Positions 3,688-39,127 of a stretch of DNA of 64,000 nucleotides are shown here, piece after piece. Each line of letters starts with the position of its first letter. Position 1 is the stretch's first letter. The position numbers were made by a program, and so were the translations under genes. This stretch comes from Epsilonproteobacteria bacterium tcs-49 (lineage in GTDB: Bacteria; Campylobacterota; Campylobacteria; Campylobacterales; Sulfurovaceae), in assembly GCA_002049495.1 (NCBI GenBank), contig LLYS01000012.1:1-64000 (forward strand), read 5' to 3'. A model generated the notes under the pieces. The model had not been told where the DNA came from. It saw nothing but the letters and a program-made list of their open reading frames with translations, and did not search any database.

Positions 3688-6222
3688 ATGACCCGAGACG
3701 AACTCAAAAAGTACAACGGCAAGAATGGACAAAAAGCCTACGTCGCCTACAAAGGCAAGGTTTACGACGTCACCGACAGTACGCTGTGGCAAAACGGTGA
3801 ACATGAACAGATGCACCAAGCCGGCAGGGACTTGACCGATGCCATGAAAGCCGCCCCCCACGGCGCCGGTGTTTTCAAAGGTTTCAAAGAGGTCGGCGAG
3901 CTGGAGGAAAGCAAAGAGCAATCCGCGCAAAGCCAAAGTGCCCCCGCAACTTTGAACGCTTTATATAAACGCTTTCACCCCCACCCCATGAGCGTGCATT
4001 TTCCCATCGCCCTGCATCTGTTTGCGGCCTTTTTCAACCTGCTTTTCCTTTTCGACAAAAGCCAGACTTGGGAACAGCTGGTCTTTTACTCCCTCTCCAT
4101 CTCCACGCTGATGGGAGTGTTTGCCATGATAACGGGCATTATGAGTTGGAAGATCAACTACGCCTTTTCGGCTTCAAAGATCTTTAAACAAAAGCTCTAT
4201 CTCTCAATCCTCACGCTGGGACTTGGTATCGTTGCCCTTATCATCTACTTTGCCGATACCGACGCGGTTTACGAGATATCGGGCTGGGGTGTCGTTTATC
4301 ACGCTATCGTCTTTGTTACGGCACTGACGGTGATCATGCTGGGTTACCTCGGCGGAATCATCGCCTGGGGGAGCAAATCCGCTTCCGGCGGCGCAAAAGG
4401 CGCTACAAAAAGAAAAGAGCAAAGCGCTCAAAATTTGACGGTTCAAAATAGAAAACGCGAACGCTACACCTTTGCGCCCCAAAACACCGCCACCGCTTTG
4501 CAGCTGCCGTCTCTGCCCCTGCAAAGCATGAACGCACCGGGGTCCCGAAAACCTTTTAAAGAGCTCAATATCCAGATAGGCGGTCCGGCGGGAGCGGGGA
4601 TCAATACCGTGGAGCGCCTGGTGAGCGAAGCGCTCAAAGCCCAGAAACTGTGCCACTTTATCACCAGTGAATTTATGTCCCGGGTCCGCGGGGGCAGCAA
4701 CACCACTTTTATCCGTATCGCGGAAGATGCGGTGGCCGCACCCCTATGGCAAGCCGATATCTTTATCGCTTTGGATGAGCAAGCGTACGAACACTCCAGA
4801 TCCAGAGTCAAAGATGCGGTCGTCATCACCGACAAGAACAACAAGATAGCGGCGAAAAATCTTATCAAAATCCCCGTAAAAGAGAGTGTGAAGGATTTGG
4901 GCTCCCTCTATGAAAACAGTTTCGCATTCGGCTTTCTGTGCGCCTATATCGGTATCGACGAGCGCAACGGCAAGCACGCGGTAAAGACGCTCTTTAAAGA
5001 CAAAAATGAACAAAACAACCTCAAAGCCTTCGATCTGGGTTTCCGTGCCTTTTCGGAAAAAAGCGACTTCAACCTCAGAAGCTTTGCGCAAAACCAGGGA
5101 GAGGGCGGCTATCTCAGCGGAAACGAATCGATCGGCTTTGGGTTTTTAAGCGGCGGGGTCAATTTCATCTCCTCCTACCCCATGTCTCCCTCCACGGGCG
5201 TCTTTACCTTTTTAGCCGGTATGGGAAAAACTTTTCCACTGGTGCTGGAACAAGCCGAGGACGAGATAGCGGCGCTGAATATGGTGATCGGTGCCTGGTA
5301 CGCCGGCGGCAGGGGATTGACCACCACCTCCGGCGGCGGATTTTCTTTGATGAGTGAAGCGCTGAGCCTGGCGGGGATGAGCGAAACCCCCGCACTCGTC
5401 TACCTCGCCCAGCGCCCCGGTCCCGCCACGGGTCTGGCCACGCGGACCGAACAGGGAGATCTCAATCTCGCTCTGCACGCGGGACACGGCAACTTTCCGC
5501 GCCTGATCCTGGCTCCCGGCGACAGTGAGGAAGCCACCCTCCTTGCCCACTACGGGGCGGACTTTGCCGATTATTTCCAAATCCCCGTCATCTATATGGC
5601 CGATCAATTTTTCGCCGATTCCATACGCTATGCTCCCAAGCTGGATTTCGACGCCCTTCCCGAACAAAACTTCATAACCCCCAGCAAGCGCAACTACCGT
5701 CGCTACGCGGATACGGACAGCGGTCTCTCCCCCCGCGCCATCCCCGGATACGGCGAAGGGATCGTGCGGGCCACCAGCGGGGAGCACTCCCAAAACGGAC
5801 AGATTACCGAAGATTATGAAATCAGAAACCAAGACAACGCCAAGCGGGCACGCAAACTGCAAACCCTGCGCGAGCACGCCCTGGCTCCCCAGGTAACAGA
5901 GGGAGAAAACTCCGTAGCGCTTGTGGGATGGGGATCAACGAAATCCGTCATCGCCGAAGTCGCCGCAAAACTGGGACTGAGCGCGGTGCATTTTTACTGG
6001 CTTTATCCCCTGAATGAAAAACACCTCGAACCGTTAAAGGCTTACGATAAACTCATCGTCGTAGAAAACAACGACAACGGCCAATTCCAAGATCTGCTGC
6101 GGCTGCACGGCATCCGGTGCCACGCTTTCATCGGCAAAGCGGACGGCTTTTGCTTCTTTAGCGACGAACTCCGTGACAGGGTCAACGAGCATCTATATGC
6201 AAAGGAGGATTCCCATGGCTAG
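3688..6222 (+). CDS. Cytochrome b5-DUF2231-2-oxoacid oxidoreductase gamma/alpha fusion
   Basis: 844 residues from an ATG with a strong RBS (AAGGAG at 3677-3682). Residues ~1-72 form a prokaryotic cytochrome b5-like domain with candidate heme histidines in GEHEQMHQAGRD (38-49) and AAPHG (55-59). Residues ~97-228 are a four-helix DUF2231 membrane domain opening with HPHPMSVHFPIAL. After a Ser/Ala/Gln/Arg-rich linker (~229-285) comes a complete KorA-type subunit: gamma domain (IQIGGPAGAGI at ~295-305, SRVRGGSN) and alpha/pyrophosphate domain (YPMSPST, QRPGPATGLATRTEQGD). Reading is continuous with no stop. An internal start at ATG 4528 (residue 281) would give an ordinary KorA but has no visible RBS. 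If the fusion is real, a TPP enzyme normally soluble would be tied to the membrane and a heme. korB follows with an 8-base overlap. Confidence 0.8.
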   Translation: MTRDELKKYNGKNGQKAYVAYKGKVYDVTDSTLWQNGEHEQMHQAGRDLTDAMKAAPHGAGVFKGFKEVGELEESKEQSAQSQSAPATLNALYKRFHPHPMSVHFPIALHLFAAFFNLLFLFDKSQTWEQLVFYSLSISTLMGVFAMITGIMSWKINYAFSASKIFKQKLYLSILTLGLGIVALIIYFADTDAVYEISGWGVVYHAIVFVTALTVIMLGYLGGIIAWGSKSASGGAKGATKRKEQSAQNLTVQNRKRERYTFAPQNTATALQLPSLPLQSMNAPGSRKPFKELNIQIGGPAGAGINTVERLVSEALKAQKLCHFITSEFMSRVRGGSNTTFIRIAEDAVAAPLWQADIFIALDEQAYEHSRSRVKDAVVITDKNNKIAAKNLIKIPVKESVKDLGSLYENSFAFGFLCAYIGIDERNGKHAVKTLFKDKNEQNNLKAFDLGFRAFSEKSDFNLRSFAQNQGEGGYLSGNESIGFGFLSGGVNFISSYPMSPSTGVFTFLAGMGKTFPLVLEQAEDEIAALNMVIGAWYAGGRGLTTTSGGGFSLMSEALSLAGMSETPALVYLAQRPGPATGLATRTEQGDLNLALHAGHGNFPRLILAPGDSEEATLLAHYGADFADYFQIPVIYMADQFFADSIRYAPKLDFDALPEQNFITPSKRNYRRYADTDSGLSPRAIPGYGEGIVRATSGEHSQNGQITEDYEIRNQDNAKRARKLQTLREHALAPQVTEGENSVALVGWGSTKSVIAEVAAKLGLSAVHFYWLYPLNEKHLEPLKAYDKLIVVENNDNGQFQDLLRLHGIRCHAFIGKADGFCFFSDELRDRVNEHLYAKEDSHG

Positions 6223-7057
6223 ACGATTCGACAACCCCGATCAACCCATCAGCTGGTGCCCGGGCTGCGGTAACTTCATCATCTTAAACCTGCTCAAAAC
6301 GGTTTTTGAGGAGTTGGATTTTGCCCGAAGCGAAGTAGTGATCGCCTCAGGCATCGGCCAAGCGGCCAGAACACCCTATTATATGGATGCCAATATGTTC
6401 GCGGGGCTGCACGGCAGAGCGATCCCCATGGCCACCGGGATGAAATCGGCAAACCCAAAACTTACCGTCGTCGCCGAAGGGGGTGATGGGGATATGTACG
6501 GTGAAGGGGGCAACCACTTTCTCAACGCCGTCAGACGGGATATGGATATGGTCAACATCGTACACAACAACATGGTTTACGGCTTGACCAAGGGGCAAGC
6601 TTCCCCCACCAGCCAAAAGGGTTTTACCACCAAGGTCCAGGTAGACGGGGTCAGCAACGAACCTTTCAACCCCTTAAGTATCGCCCTTGCAGCGGGAGCG
6701 GGGTTTGTCGCTAGAATCAGCGTCACCGATTTCGACCACGCCAAAGAGGTGCTTAAGCGCGCCTTTACCTACGAGGGATACGCCCTGGTCGATATCTTCC
6801 AACCCTGCGTCACTTTCAACAAAGTCAACGGATACGATTTTTTTGAAAAGCACACGTACAAACTGGGCCAGGATCACGACATGGGCGATTTCTCCCAGGC
6901 GATGGAAAAAGCGATGGAGAAGGCCCCCTTTCCCCTGGGGGTATTTTACGAAAAACCTTTAAAAACCTTTACCGCCGCCCACCATATAGAAAAGCCGCTC
7001 TTTGAAAACGTATACGATAAACGGGAGTTGCAAAAACTTTATGATACCATGCTTTAA
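6215..7057 (+). CDS. korB: 2-oxoacid:ferredoxin oxidoreductase beta subunit
   Basis: 280 residues from the ATG at 6215, preceded by AAAGGAGG. Beta subunit carrying the thiamine diphosphate site: CPGCGN at 15-20 contributes two of the Fe-S cysteines, and GDGDMYGEGGNHF (~88-100) is the TPP/Mg motif. Together with the upstream gamma/alpha polypeptide it makes a two-gene Kor-type enzyme that oxidises or, in the reductive TCA cycle, carboxylates 2-oxoacids such as 2-oxoglutarate. Exact substrate cannot be read from the sequence. No separate ferredoxin-like delta subunit is adjacent. Confidence 0.92.
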   Translation: MARRFDNPDQPISWCPGCGNFIILNLLKTVFEELDFARSEVVIASGIGQAARTPYYMDANMFAGLHGRAIPMATGMKSANPKLTVVAEGGDGDMYGEGGNHFLNAVRRDMDMVNIVHNNMVYGLTKGQASPTSQKGFTTKVQVDGVSNEPFNPLSIALAAGAGFVARISVTDFDHAKEVLKRAFTYEGYALVDIFQPCVTFNKVNGYDFFEKHTYKLGQDHDMGDFSQAMEKAMEKAPFPLGVFYEKPLKTFTAAHHIEKPLFENVYDKRELQKLYDTML

Positions 7058-31663: not shown

Positions 31664-31734
31664 GAGATAACGTTTAAAATGAGCCAATAAATTGCCCGTA
31701 GGGTAATTTATTGGCTCCTCTGATTTGTTATGCA
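31664..31734 (-). repeat. attC site 1 (distal)
   Basis: Cores GAGATAAC (31664-31671) and GTTATGCA (31727-31734). Inner arms GAGCCAATAAATTGCCC and GGGTAATTTATTGGCTC pair at 16 of 17 positions around a three-base loop. Belongs to the 173-residue cassette; its distal core GAGATAAC does not match that cassette's start, so it marks junction with the flank or a lost cassette. Confidence 0.85.
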
Positions 31735-32249
31735 TTTTTTCTTTTAAACACAGAAAAGACTTTTTTGAGGTCAACACCAGCTTTCTGTTCTTTTTTAACT
31801 TGAAAATTCTTAATTTCTTTCTTTTCTTTAATATCTGTAAATATTTGCTCAATAATTTTTAGAACATCAGTAGGTTGATTGCAAATTCCTTTTAATTGAA
31901 TAAATACAATTTCATCTTTTGGGAGTGAACCACTTCGAGTCATTTGATTGTCTCTTTCTAAAAAATATTGCGGATGAATAGAAGTAATCATAATTGCTGG
32001 AAGAATATCTTCAGGTTTCATACCATTCAGACTTTCCCATGATAATAGCTCTGAAAAAAAATGACTTTCTCCAACAGGTTGTATTACTACGGCATCATTT
32101 TTTGAGGCAAATTCTGCCATACGATCAAAATTAGATCGAAGAGTATTGCCTATCGGTTCATCCCAATTGTAATAATCAAGTACATACAAATAGTAGCTTC
32201 TTGATACATTTTCTGGAATTTCTGCAATTGAGTGAATTTTTAATCCCAT
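31728..32249 (-). CDS. Cassette protein of unknown function
   Basis: 173 residues, no signal peptide or membrane segment, C-terminus Lys-rich (KKVFSVFKRKNA). A central mixed alpha/beta region includes NDAVVIQPVGESHFFSELLSWE and EIVFIQLKGICNQPTDVLKII; pattern suggests a soluble nucleotide- or thioredoxin-like fold but I recognise no family. TAA stop lies inside the attC core, and the ATG sits about 20 bases from the cassette start, both normal for integron cassettes. Base use is far more AT-rich than uvrB. Confidence 0.75.
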   Translation of the reverse strand: MGLKIHSIAEIPENVSRSYYLYVLDYYNWDEPIGNTLRSNFDRMAEFASKNDAVVIQPVGESHFFSELLSWESLNGMKPEDILPAIMITSIHPQYFLERDNQMTRSGSLPKDEIVFIQLKGICNQPTDVLKIIEQIFTDIKEKKEIKNFQVKKEQKAGVDLKKVFSVFKRKNA

Positions 32250-32270: not shown

Positions 32271-32341
32271 TGCATAACGTTTGAAATGAGCCAATAAATT
32301 GCCCGCAGGGTGATTTATTGGCTCCACTGTTTTGTTATACA
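32271..32341 (-). repeat. attC site 2
   Basis: Cores TGCATAAC (32271-32278) and GTTATACA (32334-32341); arms GAGCCAATAAATTGCCC and GGGTGATTTATTGGCTC pair at 15 of 17 positions. Nearly identical to sites 1 and 5. It is the 3' end of the hamAB cassette. Confidence 0.87.
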
Positions 32342-34650
32342 TATCTATGAATCGCATCATATCTTTCTTCACTAAGCTCATTTATAGATGTTTTAAAAAC
32401 AATTTCATTTTCGTCAATAGAATCGATATGATTTTTTAACCAGTCTATGTCTTCAAATCCGAAACCATATCGTAAGAGCCAAATTTCAATTTCATCGTTT
32501 GTTCCATAACGTATAAAATTCTTCATAATCAGTGCTCTAGAATCGGTTGTTTTGTTATAGTACAATTGGAATGCAGCACAAATCGGGTCAACTAATGATA
32601 GAGAAACCACCTTGTCTAAATAATCGTACGTGTCATAAACCAATGTGTCATAATCAAATTCAGAAATAGATGTATTTCTAGGGAATATTGATGCTTCTCT
32701 TAAATCCTTATTGGGTAAAGAGGATGGAATGGGCGAATATCTGATTTTTAGAGATTCTATTTCTTTTTTAGCATCTAGTGGAGATAATTCGCCTAATTTG
32801 ACTTTTGCTGTAATTTTTCTAACTTGATCTTTTTCTGTTATAAATGCATGGCGTAACGAGACCATTTCGCTGAATGATTTTCCTTGAATATGCCATAGCA
32901 TAATTGGGATAGCCGTACTTAAGACAGCTTTTTCGGCTCTATTTAAGCTAGTTCTTCTTAGGTGTTTAACAAATATTTTTTGGAATGAACTTTTTATTTT
33001 TTTTCTTACTTCATCATCTAGTTCATAATAACTTCTACCTGTTATCGGAACATTATTATGTAAAAGGTTTTCTAATATATATGATATATCTTGCTCTAAA
33101 CTTGTCCCTTCTAAACGCTCAACTTGTGTATTTGTCAAATGCAATTCATCGTTAAAAGTACCTTCTTTAACTGCTTCTACGATATCTTTTACATCATCTG
33201 AGATTGAGGAAAACTCTTCATCAATTTTAGAAACTTCATTTAAAAAGTAGTCATCATTTATTCTTGAACAAAATGTACTTACATTTTCTTGTTTTATGAT
33301 TGTGTATCCATATTCAAAGTTACTATTTGTTGAAGTGGTACGTCCAGCTCTACCAATTAAATTTTTTAAACTAAGTGTAGGAAGATTACGAAAATTATCA
33401 ATCCAGACTACATCGAATGGCATGTTGATACCTTGAATCAATGTGCTAGTTGCAAAACAGATATGGACGAAATTTGATCTAACAAAATCCTCTATAATCA
33501 ATCTTGCATGTAAAGGCATAGATCCATGATGGATTACAATTCCTTTTTCCATCATGTTAATTAATAATGAATATTTATCAGTGTCATTTGCACCAATGAA
33601 TTTTTTTAGCTTTTCGATCAACCTAATTGCATTTGGGTCTGTAATCTTGTTACATAGTTCAATATATTGAGCAAAGTCAGTCAGATATCTACCATCATAT
33701 ATTTTATTCTTTGCAATATATACTAATAAAGTACCACCTTGTTCCAGTATGTTTTTTACGATATCTGTATTCAAAGTTTTGATATATCGATTTTCTTCTG
33801 GGTAATATGGAGAAAAATATTTAAAATCATTATTTTTATGAGACAAAAACACTTTTCCAACAGAGTGCTGGTCATATAATCTGTAGTCAGCGTTATTTGT
33901 GAAGTGGTGTTTTAAGAGTTGTGCTTGCGGATTATTTACAAAAGGATGGGTAAATACTTTTTTTGCGTCTGGTAAAACCTTATCAATTCTTCGGACAAAT
34001 GCATCAAATTTCATTCCTCTAATATTTTCCTCTGATATTTGTGCTTCATCTAGTAAAAATAGCTTAATATTGAATTGCCCAACATTTTTAAATAATTCCG
34101 GACCTCTTTCTGGTGTAATAACAAATATTCTACGTTCGATTTTTGAAATGTTAATATTCTCAATAAATGGTAAGACTAAGACGGAATTTTCTACAAACTC
34201 ATTGATAGTATCTATATACTCTGCAATTAACGCGCGTGAAGGGACTACTATGACTATGTCATAATCTATGTTTTGAATTAGCTCGCGAAACAAATAGGAC
34301 TTACCTGCACTTGTTGGTGCAGAAAAGGAAAAATACTTTTTTTCGTTAATATTTAAATATGCATGCGCTTGTACAGGAGTAAAAGTTCTTCCGGTTTCTT
34401 CCCTGATAACATCTTCGTATATCGAATATACTTCATCGAGTAAACTTTCAGGCTCTGTTGTCTTATAGAATAGACCCATTGCATACAAAAGCTTTTTTTC
34501 ATATTTTCTTAAAATATCATCGTGAAATATTTTAATATATGCCAATTTTTCAAAACTAGCCGAGTCTATCGGACCATTATTATGAATGGTATTAATTATA
34601 TTAACCAGTGTTTGTTCAACATTCTGATTTTCAATGATGTGTTTAGGCAT
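32335..34650 (-). CDS. hamB: HamB-like helicase of a Hachiman-type defence system
   Basis: 771-residue superfamily 2 helicase of the Ski2-like kind. Q-motif region FTPVQAHAY (~90), Walker A APTSAGKS (~111-118), motif II DEAQ (201-204), then HHGSMPLHARLIIEDF, FATSTLIQGINMPFD and NLIGRAGRTT for motifs IV-VI, and a helical C-terminal region. In Hachiman systems HamB holds and regulates the nuclease HamA and senses damaged or phage DNA; HamA is encoded immediately upstream with an 8-base overlap. The stop codon is inside attC site 2, so both genes move as one cassette. AbpB-like helicases are the main alternative assignment. Confidence 0.75.
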   Translation of the reverse strand: MPKHIIENQNVEQTLVNIINTIHNNGPIDSASFEKLAYIKIFHDDILRKYEKKLLYAMGLFYKTTEPESLLDEVYSIYEDVIREETGRTFTPVQAHAYLNINEKKYFSFSAPTSAGKSYLFRELIQNIDYDIVIVVPSRALIAEYIDTINEFVENSVLVLPFIENINISKIERRIFVITPERGPELFKNVGQFNIKLFLLDEAQISEENIRGMKFDAFVRRIDKVLPDAKKVFTHPFVNNPQAQLLKHHFTNNADYRLYDQHSVGKVFLSHKNNDFKYFSPYYPEENRYIKTLNTDIVKNILEQGGTLLVYIAKNKIYDGRYLTDFAQYIELCNKITDPNAIRLIEKLKKFIGANDTDKYSLLINMMEKGIVIHHGSMPLHARLIIEDFVRSNFVHICFATSTLIQGINMPFDVVWIDNFRNLPTLSLKNLIGRAGRTTSTNSNFEYGYTIIKQENVSTFCSRINDDYFLNEVSKIDEEFSSISDDVKDIVEAVKEGTFNDELHLTNTQVERLEGTSLEQDISYILENLLHNNVPITGRSYYELDDEVRKKIKSSFQKIFVKHLRRTSLNRAEKAVLSTAIPIMLWHIQGKSFSEMVSLRHAFITEKDQVRKITAKVKLGELSPLDAKKEIESLKIRYSPIPSSLPNKDLREASIFPRNTSISEFDYDTLVYDTYDYLDKVVSLSLVDPICAAFQLYYNKTTDSRALIMKNFIRYGTNDEIEIWLLRYGFGFEDIDWLKNHIDSIDENEIVFKTSINELSEERYDAIHRYV

Positions 34651-35347
34651 TTACTTCGATTCCGATCACATATAACTCATCATGCTCAAGCAAATCATCT
34701 ATGTATGTTGAGCTGAGTGCATTATTAAGTATATCTGCTGGATTTTGGCTATTGATAGAAAAAGCTGCTACAAATCCTTTTTGATCTTGTTTAATATTTT
34801 CAATAGATTCGGCAGATACAAAATATTGTAAATCAACTAATTCTGCCACATCTTTTTTTAGTACAACAAAATCTGCGATTTGCTCCATTGCGTTTCTATA
34901 GGGATTCCCCGTACCACTGTATTTAGCTTCACCAAAGGCAATTAAATTTGTATGAGTTTCTGTGTGAAAATCAAATCCAGGATTTCCGGTAACTTTTTCT
35001 TTTAGCAATTCTGCCAATGGTACTTTAGTATGATTGTGTTGCATTTCCAATGAGTCTTGTGCTGAAGCAGATATAAGGAACTCACCGAATTCAGTACTTA
35101 CAGTAGTGCTGACTTTTTTCAATATATCATTGACTAGCTTTTCAATTGTCCTTTCTGCTCTAGCTTCATAACTCATTCTAGGAATAATGCCAAGTTCATT
35201 TATCCAACTTTTGTTTGATAGCATATCTATCATTTCACGGGCTCTAACTCCAATATCAGTTATTTTCACATGTATAGAAAACACATTACAGTCAGTCGTC
35301 TTTCCATAGTCTTGCATATTTTCAAGTTTACAACTTATGATTTCCAA
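34643..35347 (-). CDS. hamA: HamA-like DUF1837 nuclease of a Hachiman-type system
   Basis: 234 residues. The nuclease core has PLAELLKEK, GFDFHTE (D126) and IAFGEAKYSGTGNPY with E140-x-K142, the D...ExK arrangement of PD-(D/E)xK enzymes and of DUF1837/HamA. First gene of the cassette: its ATG lies 14 bases inside the cassette start at 35368, and it overlaps hamB by 8 bases. By analogy it degrades DNA once HamB releases it. Assignment rests on motif and gene order, not on a profile search. Confidence 0.72.
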   Translation of the reverse strand: MEIISCKLENMQDYGKTTDCNVFSIHVKITDIGVRAREMIDMLSNKSWINELGIIPRMSYEARAERTIEKLVNDILKKVSTTVSTEFGEFLISASAQDSLEMQHNHTKVPLAELLKEKVTGNPGFDFHTETHTNLIAFGEAKYSGTGNPYRNAMEQIADFVVLKKDVAELVDLQYFVSAESIENIKQDQKGFVAAFSINSQNPADILNNALSSTYIDDLLEHDELYVIGIEVNA

Positions 35348-35360
35348 TGTGTTCCTTTCA

Positions 35361-35431
35361 TGTATAACGTTTGAGTTGAGAAATATTTGAGCCGCAGGGT
35401 CAAATATTTCTCTCCAATGATTTGTTATGTA
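35361..35431 (-). repeat. attC site 3
   Basis: Cores TGTATAAC (35361-35368) and GTTATGTA (35424-35431). Arms GAGAAATATTTGAGCC and GGGTCAAATATTTCTC form the stem; the arm sequence differs from sites 1, 2 and 5 while the loop GCA and flanks are shared. 3' end of the small secreted-protein cassette. Confidence 0.85.
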
Positions 35432-35433
35432 TT

Positions 35434-35811
35434 TTAGTCAAATCCATTTTTTTTACAAAGTTTTTTAAATAGTAAAACATTATCTTCACATATGCTTTGA
35501 ACAATTTTTTGATTTTTAAATTCTGGCTGAGGATAAACTCTATTAACTGTCATCTTAGCACAAACATCTAGTCTATAATCAAATTCACTTCTTTGAGTTG
35601 TTGATAATTTTAATTTTTCAACTGAGTTGGCTGTTATCATAACTAGTTTTCCACAATTTGTTATGACAATATCTTGTATTTCATTTTTATTCCCACCATT
35701 AGCAACCCATGAGTCTAAATTTTTAAAATATGATTTTTCAACCTCTTCAATTGTTGAAGCATTGAGATTTAATACAAAAATTAATGTTATTAAAAATAAT
35801 ATCTGTTTCAT
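35434..35811 (-). CDS. Small secreted cysteine-containing cassette protein
   Basis: 125 residues from ATG 35811 with AAGGATAGAC upstream; the longer open frame would run back through the next attC and is rejected. Signal peptide at ~1-18 (hydrophobic core ILFLITLIFVLNL, cleavage near NAS). Mature part has four cysteines (NCGKL, VCAKM, ICEDN, LCKKN) that could form two disulfides. No family recognised. Single-gene cassette bounded at 35828. Confidence 0.75.
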   Translation of the reverse strand: MKQILFLITLIFVLNLNASTIEEVEKSYFKNLDSWVANGGNKNEIQDIVITNCGKLVMITANSVEKLKLSTTQRSEFDYRLDVCAKMTVNRVYPQPEFKNQKIVQSICEDNVLLFKKLCKKNGFD

Positions 35812-35828
35812 GTCTATCCTTACATAAC

Positions 35829-36008
35829 GTCCGTGCTGAGCGACACTCAGAAAGGAGGATTGAAAACGAAGTTTTCGAAATCCAACTGAATGAGTGGGAA
35901 AGAGTGTTCGCTCCTGCGACTTGGTATCTTGAAACTGCGAAGCAGTGAAAGATGCCAAGAACTCGTTCAGCACGGACGGTATCTCTGCGACGCAGGAGCA
36001 GAGATACC
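35829..36008 (-). mobile_element. Gene-less microcassette with multi-hairpin attC
   Basis: About 180 bases without an ORF. Terminal arms GTCCGTGCTGAGCG (35829-35842) and CGTTCAGCACGGAC (35964-35977) match at 13 of 14 positions. Inside are nested stems: GAAAAC-GAA-GTTTTC, CTTGGTATCTT with AGATGCCAAG enclosing ACTGC-GAA-GCAGT, and GCGACACTC with GAGTGTTCGC. The cassette core pair GGTATCTC (35978-35985) and GAGATACC (36001-36008) is perfectly complementary, leaving a body of only 15 bases. Both cores carry GG/CC where others have GTT/AAC. Confidence 0.7.
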
Positions 36009-36071
36009 GTTTAAAATGAGCCAATAAATTGCCCACAGGGTAATTTATTGGCTCCACTGATTTGTTATGTA
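36001..36071 (-). repeat. attC site 5
   Basis: Cores GAGATACC (36001-36008) and GTTATGTA (36064-36071); arms GAGCCAATAAATTGCCC and GGGTAATTTATTGGCTC, 16 of 17 paired. Same subtype as sites 1 and 2. 3' end of the HEPN-like cassette. Confidence 0.85.
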
Positions 36072-36643
36072 ATTTTTACTTTGAATTGTTCTTGCTCATT
36101 CAATAAACTATTGGAAACTATCTTTAAAGCTTCACAAGCTAAATCAAAATTTCCATATTCAAAATAAAAATATTGCCATTCTTTAGTTCTCCCTTGTTCA
36201 AACATGTACCGATACATAATAAATATGTCATTATTATTTTTAAATAATTGCTTTAATTTTGTTCCTCTTTCAGGATCATTATTAGAGTTGTTAGGATCTG
36301 ATTTTTCTAATGAAGCTCGAATATATAAAGTTTCTTTTCTAGTTTCACCATCAAGAGATTTATATTCTTTGTTTAATCGTTTTTGTATATTAGGTGATAA
36401 TTTATTATGTAAATCATCTAAATTGTGTCCATGGGGTTTATTGTTTCCTTCCATAATAATTAAAGTTTTTAAATATAACTCCATCGCTAAACCATAATTA
36501 GTCGCTGATGCAAATACTATTGTCGGAGAAATTTTATTTGTATTTTTATATTGTTGTAAACATCCTTTAGCAACATCATGAAATGTACTTGCTGAAGCTA
36601 GTGATGTAATATAATCAAACTTTTCTGATGGCTTTGCTTTCAT
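36065..36643 (-). CDS. HEPN-like protein, cassette gene
   Basis: 192 residues, helical. NYGLAMELYLKTLIIMEG followed by HGHNLDDLHNKL (~49-80) is the pattern of HEPN-type four-helix proteins, here without a clear Rx4-6H RNase motif; RYMFEQGR lies later (~145). HEPN proteins are common in toxin-antitoxin and defence loci. Stop in attC site 5; 12 bases downstream of the second HEPN-like gene, so co-transcribed. Function inferred only at fold level. Confidence 0.65.
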   Translation of the reverse strand: MKAKPSEKFDYITSLASASTFHDVAKGCLQQYKNTNKISPTIVFASATNYGLAMELYLKTLIIMEGNNKPHGHNLDDLHNKLSPNIQKRLNKEYKSLDGETRKETLYIRASLEKSDPNNSNNDPERGTKLKQLFKNNNDIFIMYRYMFEQGRTKEWQYFYFEYGNFDLACEALKIVSNSLLNEQEQFKVKIT

Positions 36644-36655
36644 ATATTGCTTCTC

Positions 36656-37303
36656 CTATTTTTCTTCATTTAATAAAAAAGCTTTAATATCATTAATAAA
36701 TGGTCTCAATCTTCTATAAGCAATTTTAGACTGTTCAATTTCATACTCAATGTTTTTTTTCGCTGCGGCTTCAATATGTATACTATTTCTTAGTGTGTAA
36801 AAACTTTTTATTTCATCTGCGTAAATTTCATTAACAAAGCCTATATCTACAGAAGCATCAACTTTATCATGGAAAGGGATTGAAGTCCAAGGAGTTTTTG
36901 TTTCTTTTTTTAGACATGTAAAGATTTTGTTACCTTCATAAGTAATCTCAGTTAATCCTGAAAGAGCTGCAATATCTTTAAGACTTATATGTGTAGATAT
37001 TTTTTTTACATTCTCATCTTCTTTAAAATTATTTAATAGTAAATAGTTGATTACAGCTTCATAGATTGAAGCATATTGAATAATTTGAAACTTCAAATGT
37101 GCATGTAGCTCATAGTCTTCTAAAAACAAGGCTTCCATCAATTTATAAATGTATCTGGCTGTATAAAATTCTCTTGCAAGAGATTCTTGTAAAGCTTGAT
37201 CTTTAATAAAGTCAAATTCATTAATATACCAATCATGTTCTTGTGGTAAATCTCTTTTACAGTAGTTTAAGACTTCATCTATAATTTTAGTTTCTAATGG
37301 CAT
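36656..37303 (-). CDS. Second HEPN-like protein, cassette gene
   Basis: 215 residues, mainly helical. LKFQIIQYASIYEAVINYLLL (middle, ~69-89) and FYTLRNSIHIEAA near residue 168 resemble the HEPN pattern in which a conserved Arg-Asn precedes a histidine on the last helices. A possible RNase or non-catalytic partner of the adjacent HEPN-like gene. Its ATG abuts the half-deleted attC 6, so the natural upstream part of its cassette is missing. Confidence 0.6.
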   Translation of the reverse strand: MPLETKIIDEVLNYCKRDLPQEHDWYINEFDFIKDQALQESLAREFYTARYIYKLMEALFLEDYELHAHLKFQIIQYASIYEAVINYLLLNNFKEDENVKKISTHISLKDIAALSGLTEITYEGNKIFTCLKKETKTPWTSIPFHDKVDASVDIGFVNEIYADEIKSFYTLRNSIHIEAAAKKNIEYEIEQSKIAYRRLRPFINDIKAFLLNEEK

Positions 37304-37308
37304 TTATG

Positions 37309-37331
37309 TCTCTCCAATGTTTTGTTAAGTA
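37309..37331 (-). repeat. Half-deleted attC site 6
   Basis: Only the right side survives: TCTCTCCAATGTTTT, nearly identical to the right flank of site 3 (TCTCTCCAATGATTT), and core GTTAAGTA (37324-37331). The left arm and distal core are missing and the sequence joins directly to the start of the HEPN-like gene, pointing to a deletion that fused two cassettes. Confidence 0.7.
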
Positions 37332-37681
37332 TTGAAATAATTAGCCAAATCATTTGATGACCAACCACCCCTTCCTGGCTTTCCAGGTGTACCCGACAAA
37401 CCAGGTCTCCCTGGACGTCCAGAAAACCCTGGCATACCTGGAGTACCACTCATTCCAGGACGACTAGGTAAATACCCTGTTGAGTTTCGCAAAAAGCCCA
37501 AAGCTTTGTTTTGATTATCATAGAGAACTCCATCTTCAAACCAACCGATATGTCGTCCTTGGAGTGAATACATATTGTTGTTATATATCCAAGCTATTAC
37601 TTGACCATTACGATTTCTAAAACAATCATTGTCATGAATTAATGTTGCTTGTCCATTGCGGTTGAATACCCAATCTGCCAT
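37325..37681 (-). CDS. 4-fold beta-flower-like protein with collagen-like tail
   Basis: 118 residues. N-terminal ~70 residues show four repeated short strands with N-x-x-G turns (NRNGQATLI, NRNGQVIAWI, LQGRHIGWFEDGVLYD, NKALGFLRN), matching the 4-fold beta-flower domain. Residues 75-104 are ten x-G-x triplets rich in Pro (PGM, SGT, PGM, PGF and so on), a collagen-like stretch. No signal peptide. Stop codon inside the attC 6 core, ATG close to the cassette start at 37703. Role unknown; beta-flower proteins often appear in accessory and defence regions. Confidence 0.7.
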   Translation of the reverse strand: MADWVFNRNGQATLIHDNDCFRNRNGQVIAWIYNNNMYSLQGRHIGWFEDGVLYDNQNKALGFLRNSTGYLPSRPGMSGTPGMPGFSGRPGRPGLSGTPGKPGRGGWSSNDLANYFNT

Positions 37682-37695
37682 TTATTCTCCTTTTA

Positions 37696-37767
37696 TACAT
37701 AACGACAGAGTGCAGCCGACCGTGCCGCGCAAGCGGCACGAGGTCGGCTGACACGACGGGTTAGAGC
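37696..37767 (-). repeat. attC site 7 (GC-rich type)
   Basis: Cores TACATAAC (37696-37703) and GTTAGAGC (37760-37767). Arms CAGCCGACCGTGCCGC and GCGGCACGAGGTCGGCTG pair with a two-base bulge, i.e. the extrahelical bases expected of attC. Composition is utterly unlike the AT-rich sites and recalls attC types of GC-rich Proteobacteria. Confidence 0.85.
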
Positions 37768-37991
37768 GCGGATGACGAGGACTTGGACTTGAGACAGAAC
37801 AGTTCCCACAGGCCAGGGTGCATGCGGGCAATACCGGCCTCCCAGTCCTGCCATGTGCGGCGCGTGGAGTACACCAGCGCGGCAGCAGCAGACTGCGAGA
37901 GGCTGGCAGCCTCCCGCGCTGCGCGGATCTGCTCAGGCGCGGGGTTTGCCGCCGAGCTACCCCGGCGGCTGCGGTTCGGGTGGTTAGGCAT
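37761..37991 (-). CDS. Helix-turn-helix regulator, foreign cassette
   Basis: 76 residues from ATG 37991, which overlaps the upstream gene's stop. IRAAREAASLSQSAAAALVYSTRRTWQDWEAG is split between two helices of an XRE-like HTH of the type found in plasmids and phages, followed by MHPGLWELF. Probable DNA-binding autoregulator; a palindrome fills the promoter spacer upstream of this operon. GC-rich codon use contrasts with the neighbouring cassettes. Stop inside attC 7. Confidence 0.75.
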   Translation of the reverse strand: MPNHPNRSRRGSSAANPAPEQIRAAREAASLSQSAAAALVYSTRRTWQDWEAGIARMHPGLWELFCLKSKSSSSAL

Positions 37992-38294: not shown

Positions 38295-38340
38295 GTGCAG
38301 AAACGAAAATATTTCTCGGGCGCTGAACTAGCGCTCTAAC

Positions 38341-38473
38341 TATTTATTAAACATACAAAATGTACATTTATTATCGATATACCACAATATTCACACATTT
38401 TGTAAAGCATAAATTAAACACTAATATTAGCAAAAAATTATTAAATATTCTATATCGATTCAGTTTTACGTTA
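38341..38473. other. AT-rich spacer at the proximal end of the array
   Basis: Gene-free, very AT-rich stretch between the first cassette (starts at 38340) and the toxin-antitoxin remnant. This is where attI and a divergent intI would be expected; I see neither a recombinase frame nor a recognisable attI. Together with the cassette leader it makes ~315 bases without a gene. Confidence 0.6.
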
Positions 38474-38529: not shown

Positions 38530-38826
38530 GTGGTTTTTGATCCCGAAGATTACTCTCAAAATCTATTTTGGCAATCGAAAGGAAAAAGTGAACAAAAGGT
38601 ATACTCGATCATTTCCAAGTATCTGTCCACGATGAATAAAAATGATATCAAGATGCTGTGTAGCCAATTTGGTAAAACCATAGTCAAAAGCGTACTTAAA
38701 GACAGATATAAAAAGATGTATGCAAAGGGGTACATCTCCACAAACGGCATCGATATACCGTTAAGCGGGAAATTTGAACACAATGAAATCTATAAACAAC
38801 TTATGGGGATGATAGATGACTGCTGA
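38530..38826 (+). CDS. Putative antitoxin partner of an AbiEii-like toxin
   Basis: 98 residues, helical, basic, unknown family; contains LCSQFGKTIVKSVLKDRYKKM. Start is uncertain: GTG at 38530 lies 14 bases from AAAGGA (38511-38516), whereas the better placed ATG at 38522 is out of frame, hinting at a small indel at the start. Its last codons overlap the ATG of the AbiEii-like remnant, the usual antitoxin-toxin layout, and the operator lies upstream. Confidence 0.55.
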   Translation: MVFDPEDYSQNLFWQSKGKSEQKVYSIISKYLSTMNKNDIKMLCSQFGKTIVKSVLKDRYKKMYAKGYISTNGIDIPLSGKFEHNEIYKQLMGMIDDC

Positions 38827-39127
38827 TGTCAAACGAGCTCTTGATAAAATCTCTCATCACGCCATCTTTAACGATGAGTTATACTTCACGGGAGGTACGG
38901 CTTTATCGTATTATTTGCAGCATAGAGTCTCTGAAGATTCTGACTTGCAATGAGATGATTAGCGTATTTTCGCAAATGGACGCTACGATCACCTCCGCCA
39001 GCAATATCAAAAACCTCATCAACTCAAAAATGAACCCCGCGACGACGAAGCCGTCTATCTCAGCCAAAGCGATACAAACAATCTCTCCTTTGACGAAATC
39101 AAAAAAAGCGTTCTTGCAAAATTATGA
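38816..39127 (+). pseudogene. Remnant of an AbiEii/AbiGii nucleotidyltransferase toxin
   Basis: ATG 38816 encodes 45 residues with the nucleotidyltransferase signature FTGGTALSYYLQ then RVSEDSDL, ending at TGA 38951-38953. Full-length family members are several times longer. Past the stop, a shifted frame (about 38990-39127) encodes a C-terminal-looking piece ending SFDEIKKSVLAKL. An internal deletion and frameshift have therefore destroyed the toxin. The end abuts the acyl-CoA dehydrogenase-like gene. Confidence 0.7.

Follow-up and report, generated by a model that had tools for sequence, protein, structure and literature searches.

The window, the whole stretch of 64,000 nucleotides analysed from Epsilonproteobacteria bacterium tcs-49, carries a cassette array at 31.6-38.3 kb on the minus strand, which runs from an attI-like start at 38337-38355 to an end beside uvrB (Table 1). 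One cassette of the array contains two intact genes, encoding a hamA-like nuclease and a hamB-like helicase, which overlap by exactly 8 bases, as an earlier note on this DNA had claimed. The limits of the cassette are recombination points, G^TTATAC in the upstream attC and G^TTATGC in its own attC. The attC cores read previously (GTTATAC at 32334-32340 and its complement at 35362-35368) were both found, and the cassette placed at 32271-35368 is real, but its ends were a few bases off and lie strictly at 32278 and 35367. The leader is 20 bases long and the stop codon of the hamB-like gene (TAA) lies inside the R'' core of the attC, so that the cassette is very compact. Most cassettes do in general contain a single short gene, as the note remarked, but the array beside the integrase of the same genome has a two-gene restriction-modification cassette and a three-gene cassette. 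No second copy of the exact hamAB cassette was found in the searches run.

Table 1. Coordinates of the hamAB cassette and the neighboring features of the window array
Feature	Position	Strand	Description
hamAB integron cassette	32278-35367	-	3,090 bp, cut point to cut point; attC family; sister cassettes
hamA-like gene	34643-35347	-	234 aa, TTG start, AGGA upstream; PD-(D/E)xK residues E89, D126, E140, K142
hamB-like gene	32335-34650	-	771 aa, Ski2/Hel308-type SF2 helicase
attC of hamAB cassette	32271-32342	-	folding z -3.75; covariance model 76.5 bits
attC of preceding cassette, left edge of hamAB	35361-35432	-	similarity, folding, covariance model
attC of next cassette	31664-31735	-	similarity, folding, covariance model
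attC with altered core	36001-36072	-	GGTATC for GTTATC; similarity, covariance model
attC of first cassette of the array	37697-37768	-	G+C-rich; folding z -6.55; similarity, covariance model
attI-like array start	38337-38355	-	19 bp identical to L010:10736-10754 beside the resident integrase
Gene of next cassette	31728-32249	-	173 aa, without family match
Gene of preceding cassette	35434-35811	-	about 125 aa, signal-peptide-like N-terminus, without Pfam match
Long imperfect palindrome between two cassettes	35822-36003	-	outer cores attC-like

The sites of about 71 nt starting at 31664, 32271, 35361, and 36001 form one family. Three of the four are 91-94% identical to one another, and the site at 35361 is 71-74% identical to those three. 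Counts of 7-mer cores were near expectation (7 found versus 3.1 expected), so the cores alone are weak evidence; the full attC sites are not due to chance. As single strands, the three ~71-nt sites with intact cores folded into attC-type hairpins (z of -3.8 to -5.7 against shuffled sequences). A covariance model trained on ten attC sites, including five from the window, recovered all window sites and, in sequence on which it was not trained, found further sites at the edges of the Marinobacter and Oceanicaulis cassettes described below. The same model gave no attC matches in 16 control loci and one weak, unconfirmed match in L012 (E of 0.28). Loose searches for attC by regular expression and folding returned mostly chance matches in coding DNA and were replaced by similarity and the covariance model, and an Rfam search gave no attC match, only a chance match to an miRNA.

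Other parts of the array were also annotated. The palindrome listed in Table 1 is likely a gene-less cassette. A half attC at 37305-37333 indicates that two cassettes were fused, and this half site and the GGTATC core at 36001-36010 may be decaying sites that fix cassettes in place. Adjacent genes at 36065-36643 and 36656-37303 share one cassette; the product of the first fell slightly short of the Pfam HEPN cut-off (E of 2.8e-4), and the two are possibly another defence or toxin pair. A cassette gene at 37325-37681 encodes a 4-fold beta-flower protein (Pfam, 2.2e-30) that ends in a collagen-like Gly-X-Y tail. Beside the array start, short open reading frames at 38530-39000 give the impression of remnants of an AbiE-type pair.

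No integrase gene was found beyond the attI-like start of the window array. An integron integrase is encoded on another contig (C1:139043-139984; TIGR02249, 411.6 bits, cut-off of 265), and the array beside it begins with the same 19 bases as the window array (TATGTTTAATAAATAGTTA). One attC beside this integrase (L010:9451-9516) is 94% identical to the window site at 35361-35432, and another is 77-78% identical to two other window sites. Because of the common array start and the related attC sites, the window array seems to be a second array belonging to this integron system, without an integrase of its own. On the integrase side, a two-gene cassette (L010:4266-6373) pairs an ApaLI-like restriction enzyme (5.6e-99) with a type II DNA methylase; attC-like sites at 4215-4273 and 6388-6447 flank the pair, so that the whole restriction-modification system is one cassette. 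The three-gene cassette of about 3 kb (L010:6468-9425) encodes a middle protein that matches the PADLOC candidate PDC-M09A (4.6e-26).

We then examined the nuclease. Its TTG start is supported by close relatives, which have ATG-GAA-ATA at the same position. The Pfam HamA model (PF08878) scored 14.2 bits (E of 0.041), under the cut-off of 25, and the PADLOC and NCBIfam models did not match the nuclease; among 46 relatives, the Pfam and PADLOC HamA models matched few, and weakly. Searching PDB sequences with the HamA-like protein, or with a profile of its family, gave no match, and a comparison of structures was therefore needed. The AlphaFold model of the nuclease (pLDDT of 92.8) matched HamA first (8vx9_A, Z of 11.2 over 181 residues, Foldseek probability of 0.93), followed by 8vxy_A (Z of 10.2), the HamA domain of AbpA (8zue_A, Z of 8.5), and a next match with a Z of 5.8. 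The HamA match spans the full protein (residues 1-234), including parts outside the nuclease core, at a sequence identity to solved HamA of about 6%. Profile comparison with canonical HamA by hhalign gave an E of 2.4e-5 and a probability of 75% and aligned three motifs, in which the conserved E89, D126, E140, and K142 correspond to G-E, G.D..H, and GExK of canonical HamA. The four residues are invariant among the 46 aligned relatives. In the model, a helix carries E89, and the two strands that follow it carry D126, E140, and K142, as in PD-(D/E)xK enzymes.

The helicase has the motifs GKS (116-118), DEAQ (201-204), and GRAGR (433-437). The PADLOC HamB1 profile matched it (5.6e-54) over the helicase part, not over the whole profile, and its structure model matched Hel308, PolQ, and HamB structures. 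Residues 1-80 of the model are helical. The AbpAB/Hachiman helicase 8zue_B aligned over residues 1-769, while the matches to Hel308, PolQ, and Ski2 mostly started at 77-87. In HamB, the N-terminal part holds HamA (PMC12278908), and the alignment of 8zue_B from residue 1 is consistent with an extra N-terminal helical bundle in the modelled protein.

A relative from the same order (L018) was found via the helicase and combined with the window copy into a two-sequence profile, which retrieved 50 genome loci and 4 viral contigs; a search of plasmids gave no HamA relatives. The gene pair is retained in the approximately 50 relatives across many phyla, with a hamA-like open reading frame followed by a hamB-like one in every locus that extends far enough, except that of Streptococcus (L069), which is a partial HamA match. 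The pair is thus a Hachiman-type system of a sister branch outside the current HamA profiles. Its divergence follows from the absence of a PADLOC HamA match and a Pfam score under the cut-off, and because the failure of the HamA models concerns detection thresholds, we classify the pair as a divergent Hachiman-type branch rather than placing it in the annotated family. The earlier description of the pair as Hachiman-like, with a DEAQ helicase and with D126, E140, and K142 in the nuclease active site, was borne out by the HamB profiles, the nuclease structure, the comparison of motifs and profiles, and the conserved pairing; structure prediction, which it had proposed for the pair, returned HamA as by far the best PDB match for the nuclease. 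The profile search it had also proposed agreed for HamB, which was matched by PADLOC, but not for HamA, which PADLOC missed and Pfam left under the cut-off.

The host also has a canonical Hachiman locus. Its hamA is intact (C6:728-1612; PADLOC, 2.6e-107), but the hamB gene is split immediately ahead of Walker A, with the halves at the contig ends C6:1 and C3:95222 (L101:1-1612 and L019:5055-7222). Assuming a correct assembly, no Hachiman-type system other than the cassette was seen intact in this strain.

Next, we examined cassettes of this type in other bacteria. A different lineage of the family, represented in Marinobacter profundi (L047), Oceanicaulis (L055), and Halomonas (L043), showed 85-89% DNA identity over 3.1 kb with unrelated flanks, and the identity started and stopped exactly at attC cores. 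The array that holds the Marinobacter copy has at least four attC sites. Full integron integrases are present in the Marinobacter and Halomonas genomes, that of Marinobacter on the same scaffold as the cassette, about 325 kb away. Compared at the DNA level, these sister cassettes show movement, and the suggestion that the locus illustrates a way in which such systems may spread gains support from relatives carried as cassettes in other phyla. In the phylogenetic tree, the window copy was separate from the Marinobacter, Oceanicaulis, and Halomonas cassettes (97/98); because their lineage is separate, capture into cassettes probably happened at least twice. The window copy was sister to the Bacteroidota copies (84/88), a grouping taken only as a lead. 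The root of the tree was not used because the canonical HamB outgroup rows had very long branches.

The copies nearest to that of the window are from Bacteroidota. Four Bacteroidota relatives have a common 3.1-kb unit, in which identity extends from CGTTGCC to near GGCAAC in all pairs, and these units adjoin long attC-like palindromes. In the Natronoflexus genome, an attC-like palindrome motif of about 130 nt occurred about 20 times, several of them in cassette-like arrays, and never in the reversed control. Copies were located at L140:1654-3681, 7799, and 9539 and at L024:1960-2093. Two copies lie 4-6 kb from a gene for a 675-aa tyrosine recombinase, which was below the IntI cut-off, and the IntI search for the Bacteroidota relatives gave none over that cut-off. 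The palindrome arrays of Natronoflexus are a possible integron-like platform in Bacteroidota.

Altogether, the hamAB cassette very probably carries an entire abortive-infection system of Hachiman type, from a divergent branch, and the pair would move as a single integron cassette. If it works like E. coli HamAB (Tuck et al. 2024, PMC12278908), the HamB-like helicase would restrain the HamA-like nuclease while surveying DNA. The trigger may be a free end of single-stranded DNA, or a phage genome that is damaged or being replicated, upon which movement of the helicase driven by ATP hydrolysis would free the nuclease. The freed nuclease would cut all DNA indiscriminately, whereby the infection would be stopped and the cell lost. 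We infer complex formation, DNA sensing, release, and the abortive outcome from E. coli HamAB. The stop codon inside the attC, the 20-base leader, and the overlapping genes imply that the pair could be excised, shuffled, or captured in one piece by the integron integrase that this genome encodes on another contig, acting in trans.

Other readings of the pair were weighed against this one. The pair could be a variant of AbpAB and not Hachiman proper, in which case the HamA-like part would be only a scaffold in a nuclease-helicase pair. The nuclease model does match the C-terminal domain of AbpA (Z of 8.5), and the closest solved helicase by sequence (9wh1_B, 6.4e-27) partners an AbpA/HamA-C-terminal protein. 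However, in AbpA (528-565 aa), a Cap4 nuclease domain lies at the N-terminus and the HamA domain has inactive residues (PMC10732053, PMC12278908), whereas the window nuclease has 234 aa and a HamA domain only, with D-ExK intact in all relatives. AbpAB identity was rejected because the nuclease is wholly of the HamA fold, has an intact ExK, and has no Cap4 domain, and we regard it as extremely improbable. It is also quite unlikely that the genes encode a restriction-like or DNA-repair nuclease-helicase pair whose action is unrelated to Hachiman, such as the cutting of specific or modified DNA. The PD-(D/E)xK fold is common to restriction and repair enzymes, of which EndoMS, PaqCI, and FokI matched at Z of 4.9-5.8, and the helicase core is similar to Hel308, but HamA matched far better than any other structure and did so over the full length, beyond the nuclease core, and the cassette has no methylase or recognition domain.

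A reading that we take seriously, at somewhat under even chances, is that the Hachiman-type pair is inert in its host, being stored unexpressed, as many cassettes far inside chromosomal arrays are assumed to be. This reading concerns the state of the pair, not its identity, and is compatible with the divergent Hachiman-type system proposed above. A promoter scan gave no signal above chance. The cassette comes after several others, at a distance of about 3 kb from where the array begins, and is possibly silent; expression is usually weak in cassettes that lie far from the array promoter (PMC12409362). In contrast, both reading frames are intact and every invariant residue is kept, which argues for recent use, and Vibrio arrays show internal expression under some conditions (PMC12409362). 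Extending the Hachiman-type interpretation, we tentatively suggest, with rather more doubt than confidence, a third, compact Hachiman branch (HamA of about 235 aa and HamB of about 770 aa) that is widespread, invisible to HamA profiles, and repeatedly packed into cassettes, and that was passed in this form among Campylobacterota, Pseudomonadota, and Bacteroidota, in Bacteroidota arrays perhaps with a recombinase other than a classical IntI.

Hachiman itself and the role of integrons as stores of defence genes are already known (PMC12409362), and the storage and exchange of defence genes as attC cassettes are attributed there to Darracq 2025 (Science), Kieffer 2025 (Science), and Getz 2025 (Nat Microbiol). 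A literature search, whose coverage did not extend to these three papers, returned no report of Hachiman in a cassette. As far as that literature goes, the divergent branch and its recurrent packing into cassettes are new. They add a broad branch (about 50 loci in one scan) to a defence family, one that pipelines based on HamA profiles would miss. In addition, independent cases in different phyla indicate that packing and exchange as a cassette is open not only to single small genes but to a whole nuclease-helicase system of presumed abortive action, and the sister cassettes provide natural comparisons with exact boundaries.

Compared with Hachiman (HamAB of E. coli ECOR31, PDB 8VX9), the window pair likewise joins a nuclease to a Ski2-like helicase and has the HamA fold and the D-ExK motif. 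Its nuclease is shorter (234 aa versus about 259-300 aa for canonical HamA) and falls below detection by sequence profiles; its helicase has 771 aa, whereas that of 8VX9 has 1,174 aa and the canonical copies of the host's phylum have 689-853 aa; and, unlike the 8VX9 system, the pair is cassette-borne. With AbpAB (PDB 8ZUE and 9WH1; PMC10732053), it shares the HamA domain and a helicase that aligns over its full length with AbpB (8zue_B), but the window nuclease lacks the Cap4 domain and its HamA site is intact. The array resembles CALINs, which are arrays without an adjacent integrase (PMC8618304), in that its integrase is elsewhere in the genome, and differs from them in retaining an attI-like start. 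Like integron-borne defence cassettes, the window holds defence genes in an attC cassette, but here it is a two-gene HamAB-type system in a host outside Vibrio.
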